This document shows, in pieces, positions 18,090 to 40,946 of a stretch of DNA of 41,425 nucleotides; the stretch's first letter is position 1, and each line of letters opens with the position of its first letter. Position numbers and translations under genes: made by a program. The stretch comes from Clostridia bacterium (lineage in GTDB: Bacteria; Bacillota; Clostridia; UMGS1840), in assembly GCA_017468465.1 (NCBI GenBank), contig JAFUIN010000004.1, positions 1 through 41,425 on the forward strand, given 5' to 3'. The notes below the pieces were generated by a model. That model had not been told where the DNA came from. It ran no database searches and was given only the letters and a program-made list of their open reading frames with translations.

Positions 18090-18200
18090 TACCAAAAAAA
18101 CTGTAAAAAATGAAAAAGAGAAACAGGGCTGCTGTTTCTCTTTTTCCTCGTTTTGTGTGGTTGCACAAAGGAGCTATTTTTCAAATAAGCAACTTCATAA
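18090..18200 (+). other. Degenerate unit of the structured-RNA family
   Basis: Contains a perfect 15-base stem GAAAAAGAGAAACAG/CTGTTTCTCTTTTTC and then TTTGTGTGGTTGCACAAAGG and GAGCTAT, closely matching the 3' part of the RNA unit at 40340-40528 (TTTGTGTGGTTACAAAGGAG). It faces the complete unit on the opposite strand and their 3' ends meet near 18200. I see no good promoter and no terminator hairpin of its own, so it is probably a remnant. Confidence 0.5.
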
Positions 18201-18376
18201 AAAAAGTGCGCAGCAGAAGCCACGCACGAAAAATGCATTGCTCCTTGTCGCCAAACAAAACTTTACAAAACAAACACAAGATATGCGTATGCAAAGCAGA
18301 GCATGCATTTTTACCAAAAAAGGTATAAAAAAAACACACATCTAAGCGTTTGTTTCCTATTCAGTTTTGTTTGGCA
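18199..18376 (-). ncRNA. Structured small RNA, unit A of a local family
   Basis: About 178 nt read from a strong promoter to a UNCG-like terminator. A perfect 13-base stem GCCAAACAAAACT (18375-18363)/AGTTTTGTTTGGC (18262-18250) closes the fold, a second stem AAACAAAC/GTTTGTTT lies inside, and the apex carries TTGGTAAAAATGCATGCTCTG. The tail AAGGAGCAATGCATTTTTC is followed by a 9-base terminator stem and seven T. The apex and tail match the units at 40340-40528 and 40576-40725, while the stems differ in sequence but still pair. No coding potential is convincing. Function unknown. Confidence 0.72.
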
Positions 18377-18381
18377 TTTTT

Positions 18382-40232: not shown

Positions 40233-40265
40233 AGTTTTTTTGCTCAATTCAGCAATCTATTTTTG

Positions 40266-40292
40266 TGCGTAGCTTCGGCTGCGCATTTTTTT
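40266..40292 (+). terminator. UUCG terminator after pfkB, remnant of an RNA unit
   Basis: TGCGTAGC-TTCG-GCTGCGCA followed by seven T. It is preceded by AGCAATCTATTTTTG, which matches the tail of the RNA family (AGCAATGCATTTTTC in unit A), so it is probably the 3' end of a lost unit that now terminates pfkB. Confidence 0.8.
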
Positions 40293-40304
40293 ATTGGGAA
40301 AGAC

Positions 40305-40333
40305 TTGTTTTTTTCAATAAACTATGCTACACT
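40305..40333 (+). promoter_or_regulatory. Promoter of RNA unit B
   Basis: TTGTTT (40305-40310), 17 bases, TACACT (40328-40333), preceded by TGC (extended -10). The preceding AAAGACTTG is identical before unit C. Confidence 0.7.
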
Positions 40334-40339
40334 ATAAAT

Positions 40340-40528
40340 AACCACACAAATCAAATCGCCTATGATTTGACACACAAAATATTTCAAAAGTATGCAGATT
40401 TACTATTGGTAAAAATGCATGCTCTGTTTTCGCATACTTTTGGTGTTTTGTGCTCAAAGATGTTGAATTTGTGTGGTTACAAAGGAGCTATGCATTTTTC
40501 ATGCGTAGCTTCGGCTACGCATTTTTTT
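40340..40528 (+). ncRNA. Structured small RNA, unit B
   Basis: About 189 nt. Closing stem AACCACACAAAT (40340-40351)/ATTTGTGTGGTT (40467-40478), a side hairpin TCAAATC/GATTTGA, inner stems CACAAAA/TTTTGTG and CAAAAGTATGC/GCATACTTTTG, apex TTGGTAAAAATGCATGCTCTG, tail AAGGAGCTATGCATTTTTC and a terminator ATGCGTAGC-TTCG-GCTACGCAT with T run. The apex and tail agree with units A and C, but the stems do not agree in sequence and still pair. A short frame reading MHFSCVASATHFF across the terminator is not considered a gene. Confidence 0.75.
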
Positions 40529-40540
40529 ATTGGGAAAGAC

Positions 40541-40569
40541 TTGTTTTTTTCGATAAAATATGTTATACT
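40541..40569 (+). promoter_or_regulatory. Promoter of RNA unit C
   Basis: TTGTTT (40541-40546), 17 bases, TATACT (40564-40569), preceded by TGT. Nearly the same as the unit B promoter, 236 bases downstream of it. Confidence 0.75.
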
Positions 40570-40575
40570 GATTTT

Positions 40576-40725
40576 GCAACATAGTTTCATATATGCAAAA
40601 CGAGAGCATACTTTTGTTAAAAATGTATGCTTTGGTTTCATTTATCTCGTTTTGCAGGTAAACTATGTTGCAGTAGTGACCGAAGTGATACATTTTTAGT
40701 GCGTAGCTACGGCTACGCATTTTTT
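40576..40725 (+). ncRNA. Structured small RNA, unit C
   Basis: About 150 nt. Three stacked perfect stems: GCAACATAGTTT (40576-40587)/AAACTATGTTGC (40660-40671), GCAAAACGAG (40595-40604)/CTCGTTTTGC (40646-40655), GCATAC (40606-40611)/GTATGC (40625-40630). The apical region TTGTTAAAAATGTATGCTTTG resembles that of units A and B. The terminator is TGCGTAGC-TACG-GCTACGCA plus six T; TACG is another UNCG tetraloop. It ends four bases before the ribosome site of the Cys-rich gene, so it may act as that gene's leader. Confidence 0.75.
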
Positions 40726-40745
40726 ATTTGGAGGACTGGAATAAA

Positions 40746-40946
40746 ATGATTATTGATATCACAGGAATTGAGTTGGTTCCCGGAAACCACGGGAAAGACT
40801 GCCCCGGAAACGGTGAAAACGGCAATGAATGCTGTTGCGACGAATGCAATTACTTATGTTGTTGTTTAGAATATTTTAAGCCGCAAGACTGTAAAAATTG
40901 TGTCCATACAGAATGTCCTCGAAACGAATCGCAGAAATTGCGTTGA
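40746..40946 (+). CDS. Small Cys-rich protein, unknown function
   Basis: Sixty-six residues with 11 cysteines, grouped as ECCCDEC, LCCC and DCKNC...TEC, after an N-terminal segment MIIDITGIELVPGNHGKDCPG. No signal peptide or membrane helix. The cysteine pattern suggests metal binding or an iron-sulfur or zinc site; I do not recognise a named family. ATG at 40746 is chosen because GGAGG lies 11-12 bases upstream; TTG at 40728 is an in-frame alternative but would sit inside that site. It directly follows the terminator of RNA unit C, with no other promoter seen. Confidence 0.72.
   Translation: MIIDITGIELVPGNHGKDCPGNGENGNECCCDECNYLCCCLEYFKPQDCKNCVHTECPRNESQKLR

Follow-up and report, generated by a model that had tools for sequence, protein, structure and literature searches.

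A putative promoter-coupled attenuator RNA recurring before mixed genes in Clostridia

Three related RNA units, A, B and C, have been located in the window (the whole 41,425-nucleotide stretch of Clostridia bacterium DNA that was analyzed), and they are quite probably promoter-coupled transcription attenuators working by strand exchange. A single RNA strand, which can choose either the tip of a hairpin or the terminator, probably decides whether the gene behind the unit is transcribed. The promoter, the stems, both complementarities of this strand (the tail), their covariation, their overlap, and the spacing of the genes are seen in the sequence itself.

A wider reading, to which we give an even chance, is that the units belong to an undescribed class of RNA switch, carried by about a quarter of the sampled Clostridia genomes, with as many as a dozen copies in one genome. 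This class would sense a common signal, and the tail of its members, by branch migration between a pseudoknot and an antiterminator, would set how far surface proteins and unknown small proteins are expressed. If so, it would represent a previously unlisted system by which many uncultured gut Clostridia control a regulon of multiple genes. With the switching strands defined to the single base in 153 parsed examples, its ligand or partner could be searched for directly. Several small proteins that match nothing in Pfam or NCBIfam would also gain a functional context.

The units of the window

Units B and C follow each other on the plus strand, while A is a third member on the minus strand. The features are as follows.

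18196-18378, minus strand: unit A, with its own promoter upstream, its terminator at 18199-18227, and no gene directly behind
40265-40292, plus strand: terminator of a pfkB-type gene (hairpin 40265-40286), a copy of the unit terminator
40305-40333, plus strand: promoter of unit B, TTGTTT, 17 nt, TGC-TACACT (-35-like TTGTTT at 40305-40310; -10 TACACT at 40328-40333, preceded by TG); the position fits the profile of 116 homologues
40340-40351, plus strand: 5' arm of the basal stem P1 of unit B
40408-40431, plus strand: apex strand of unit B, GGTAAAAATGCATGCTCTGTTTTC, with A5, the putative GCUCU toehold, and the conserved U-rich bulge
40467-40478, plus strand: 3' arm of the basal stem P1 of unit B
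40481-40500, plus strand: tail of unit B, AAAGGAGCTATGCATTTTTC, whose predicted partner is the apex or the terminator 5' arm
40501-40528, plus strand: intrinsic terminator of unit B, TTCG loop (40501-40522 in the narrower delimitation)
40541-40569, plus strand: promoter of unit C, TTGTTT (40541-40546), 17 nt, TGT-TATACT (-10 at 40564-40569)
40576-40587, plus strand: 5' arm of the basal stem P1 of unit C
40616-40637, plus strand: apex strand of unit C, GTTAAAAATGTATGCTTTGGTT
40660-40671, plus strand: 3' arm of the basal stem P1 of unit C
40678-40698, plus strand: tail of unit C, GACCGAAGTGATACATTTTTA, complementary to its own apex (-20.0 kcal/mol)
40699-40725, plus strand: intrinsic terminator of unit C, TACG loop (40699-40720 in the narrower delimitation)
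40746-40946, plus strand: gene for a 66-aa cysteine-rich protein behind unit C, with its ribosome site within 40727-40739

The original prediction described B and C as two tandem units with promoters of 17-nt spacing and a TG before the -10 element, and all of these elements could be located. The hexamers of both promoters are weak by themselves, and a scan for consensus promoters flags neither. Among 116 non-redundant homologues, TTGAnA and TGnTATAAT are found at a constant distance upstream of the first base of the basal stem. The predicted rod folds were borne out as well, since B and C fold far more stably than dinucleotide shuffles (z -6.8 and -7.5, respectively), with 0 of 200 shuffles as good. 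As had been described, the basal stems differ between B and C and pair perfectly in each, the apex is common to both (in B its motif, GGTAAAAATGCATGCTC, has its first base at 40408), and the terminators carry UNCG loops. Part of the similarity between B and C has been attributed to recent duplication, because the two terminator-promoter junctions share a 74-nt repeat of 91% identity, which includes the terminator of the pfkB-type gene.

On the plus strand opposite unit A (18140-18230), a fragment, TTTTGTGTGGTTGCACAAAGGAGCTATTTTTC, resembles unit B in the 3' arm of the basal stem and in the tail. It may be either a decayed unit or an antisense partner.

Rod anatomy and the two pairings of the tail

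From the homologous loci, 158 distinct units have been extracted and 153 of these parsed. The rod measures 150-190 nt and contains an interior loop. Median lengths are 14 pairs for the basal stem and 18 for the second stem, and the two are separated by an asymmetric loop whose 5' side is often AAUA. The A5 run of the apex and the U4 run of the tail are near invariant, partly by construction since the parsing was anchored on both runs. The bulge of the apex, YUCURUUU, is conserved though mostly unpaired. Arms of the same unit form basal stems of -20.2 kcal/mol, compared with -9.5 kcal/mol for permuted arms (z -33, inflated by relatedness), which upholds the claim of a functional RNA with compensatory stem changes. 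A long-stem subtype (L101, L102, L103, L112, L115, L113, L110, and L133) has a second stem far longer than that of the main type, the apex AAAAATGCAAATTCC or a similar one, and the tail TATCGGAGTTTGCGTTTTT.

The tail lies between the basal stem and the terminator and is complementary both to the apex strand and to part of the terminator (its 5' arm and loop). Over 64 distinct aligned segments, 87% of the apex-tail cells are paired with a covariation score of 0.239; in slid registers at most 65% are paired and the score is at most 0.121, and 0 of 500 shuffles reach the observed value. Cells changed on both sides number 47, against at most 15 in the slid registers. The energies of strands from the same unit and of permuted partners are -16.5 and -13.2 kcal/mol for the apex-tail pairing (z -14.3) and, in a gapped duplex test, -14.4 and -11.3 kcal/mol for the tail-terminator pairing (z -13.5); these permutation values are also inflated by kinship, for which the slid registers control in the apex-tail pairing only. 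An ungapped register test of the tail-terminator pairing gives a z of 2.1, insertions disturbing the ungapped alignment.

At least six tail bases are common to both pairings in 152 of the 153 units. Since the same bases are used twice, the apex-tail and tail-terminator helices are mutually exclusive. In one unit (L083_1732) all three strands have changed, the apex to CGC..GCUUUGAUU, the tail to AAUCAAAGCGGCG, and the terminator to GCGCGGCUGUGAUUU, and in another (L019_981) the three strands have likewise changed together. Folding with the tail free gives more antiterminator than terminator pairs in 91 of the 153 units, and when the tail is held unpaired the terminator forms. Units A and B of the window show the same preference for the antiterminator with a free tail and for the terminator with the tail held unpaired. 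The alternative helix, exclusive to the terminator and kept by covariation, is weak in unit C, where the potential antiterminator reaches -7.0 kcal/mol compared with -16.9 kcal/mol in B, and the terminator prevails even when the tail is free. This weakness has been attributed to the TACG loop. The original prediction treated the change from TTCG to TACG as an exchange within the UNCG class, which is correct for the loops, but the change is not neutral because it costs the potential antiterminator of C one base pair.

Based on these observations, a mechanism can be proposed. Transcription would start at the basal stem, and the RNA would fold into a rod made of the basal stem, an asymmetric AAUA-type hinge, the second stem, and an A5/U5 apical hairpin beside a single-stranded GCUCU bulge. 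From this bulge, serving as a toehold, the tail would invade the apical hairpin and take the place of its U-strand. Such apex-tail pairing would become possible once the tail is made, and the terminator would then be free to form (OFF). A free tail that meets the terminator 5' arm first would form an antiterminator with this arm and the loop (ON), so that the gene ~20 nt downstream would be transcribed. The assignment of the two states is suggested by the order of transcription. We infer, in addition, that the apex-tail pseudoknot forms in cis by strand displacement and that a signal exists which sets the balance by acting on the rod or the apex.

Some features count against the attenuator. 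The much longer second stem of some units would strain a pseudoknot in cis, the antiterminator of unit C is weak, and 41 of 150 units have no recognized gene behind them, although several of those precede another unit. Also, the lengths of the basal and second stems are uncorrelated (-0.18), where back-folding would predict a correlation.

Genes behind the units and competing readings

The intrinsic terminator lies between the promoter of the unit and the gene, upstream of the ribosome site. Of 150 units, 52 have a ribosome site and start codon 17-25 nt behind them, compared with 4 of 750 shuffled sequences that preserve base composition only. This gap is too short for another promoter, and such genes therefore depend on read-through. 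In the genome of the window, 10 of the 12 units precede a gene at a distance of 22-102 nt; B precedes C, and A precedes none.

The downstream genes are mixed and encode cysteine-rich small proteins, Cu_amine_oxidN1 proteins, other secreted proteins or lipoproteins, small helical proteins without a family, and a LytTR regulator. The 66-aa cysteine-rich protein behind unit C has no Pfam or NCBIfam match. It belongs to a family (MIIDxxGIELxPGN...CCCDECNYLCCC) with at least five copies in its own genome, each behind a unit (window 40746-40946, L010, L101, L102, and L103). Another family of 75-78 aa proteins, many of them ending in HDF, is found directly behind units in several bacterial families (L038, L075, L094, L098, L011, and L162); among those scanned, none has a Pfam match above the cut-off.

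The signal could be a small molecule or ion that binds the A5/U5 and CUCURUUU core and shifts the exchange, which would make the units riboswitches proper, a sub-case of the attenuator. This is possible, if somewhat doubtful. The conservation extends beyond pairing, as seen in the near-invariant A5 and U4 and in the U-rich bulge that is kept though mostly unpaired, and riboswitches typically combine a terminator with alternative helices. However, the very mixed genes point to no ligand. Cyclic di-GMP would be the natural guess for such a mixture and is disfavored, since no GGDEF domain has been detected in the genome of the window (G000; 96% completeness) or in a second genome (G004), both of which carry units.

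In another sub-case, which we consider rather unlikely, a protein or other RNA would bind the rod or apex and set the switch by protein-dependent antitermination. The sequence conservation of the apex and bulge and the mixed regulon are consistent with such a binder. On the other hand, no ANTAR or CAT_RBD domain was detected in the genome of the window, whose 96% completeness leaves a small gap, and the units are therefore disfavored as ANTAR or RAT (CAT_RBD) antitermination targets.

The original prediction viewed B and C as self-contained, stand-alone RNAs. Its counterpart here is that the units are small RNA genes acting in trans after their own termination, the gene behind being incidental or reached by leaky read-through. 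Each unit does have its own promoter and a strong terminator, no gene follows directly on some of them (A included), and many copies occur per genome. This reading is improbable because far more start codons than expected by chance lie 17-25 nt behind the unit, with no room for another promoter, and because the complementarity of the tail to both apex and terminator is kept within each unit. A stand-alone RNA would have no fixed link to a downstream gene, whereas most units are followed by a gene in the same orientation, and in a third of these cases the terminator lies directly before the ribosome site of that gene. Together with the mutually exclusive helices of tail, apex, and terminator, this makes an attenuator leader the better description.

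Leader-peptide attenuation has been rejected. The apex AAAAAUG resembles a start codon, but it has no preceding ribosome site and homologues alter it (AAAAACGC, AAAAAGTA, and AAAAATAC). A 6S-like RNA that mimics an open promoter, suggested by the rod length of 150-190 nt and the interior loop, is extremely improbable given that the genome has a separate 6S RNA, that the units have no RF00013 match at E values up to 10, and that the gene spacing and alternative pairing would be left unexplained.

Distribution and relation to known RNAs

The covariance-model search that had been suggested for these RNAs has been carried out with a model built from 13 units, and many Clostridia homologues were found. 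The 1.5 Mb genome of the window contains 12 units; two further matches there are an antisense artefact and the pfkB terminator. All 9 genomes of the order carry units. In a draw from the class, 70 of 291 genomes (45 of 180 genera) have them, and E-values outside the order fall as low as 5e-26. In a phylum-wide draw of 299 genomes, which may hold few carrier families, only the genome of the window matched. Tandem units are also seen at other loci (L039, L076, L081, L083, L133, L140, L171, and L197). The named records in which the apex is matched exactly are metagenome assemblies of Clostridia, Oscillospiraceae, and Monoglobus, many of them from the gut of ruminants or rabbits; one is labeled Bacteroides and may be a mis-binned contig. 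A phage or plasmid origin has been rejected, as unit B has no match among phage and plasmid records and one exact apex pattern was not found in viral contigs.

The original prediction could not match the units to a known family, and this stands. The window units match no family in Rfam release 15, even at permissive thresholds, and in two sets of 20 homologous loci only tRNAs score above the gathering threshold. The RNA was not found in the literature; supplementary candidate lists were outside this scope, so an earlier unnamed prediction is possible. One such catalogue, from human microbiomes, comprises thousands of candidate RNAs (Fremin and Bhatt, PMC8040213).

Among the closest known systems are the ZTP/pfl (PMC10085676) and fluoride (PMC11077080) riboswitches, which terminate transcription with strand displacement. 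Like the units, they are leader RNAs before a gene in which a terminator competes with an alternative helix, and pseudoknots occur in that class. The units differ in being absent from Rfam 15, in having no assigned ligand, in recurring as a promoter and switch cassette before unrelated genes, and in the tail that is common to the rod apex and the terminator.

T-box leaders are likewise large, with mutually exclusive antiterminator and terminator, but the units have no T-box match in the Rfam scans and the genes behind them are not amino-acid related. c-di-GMP riboswitches occur in many, also tandem, copies before mixed and often secreted proteins, as the units do, but the units lack an Rfam match and their genome lacks a detectable GGDEF domain. 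6S RNA also forms a long rod of similar length, but the units have no RF00013 match. The canonical 6S RNA of the genome lies elsewhere, at G000:C9:84618-84810 (L001; RF00013, 73.8 bits).

At the contig end (41290-41425), the sequence resembles, by eye, the terminal part of a minus-strand transposase gene, and the assembly therefore probably breaks inside an insertion sequence.
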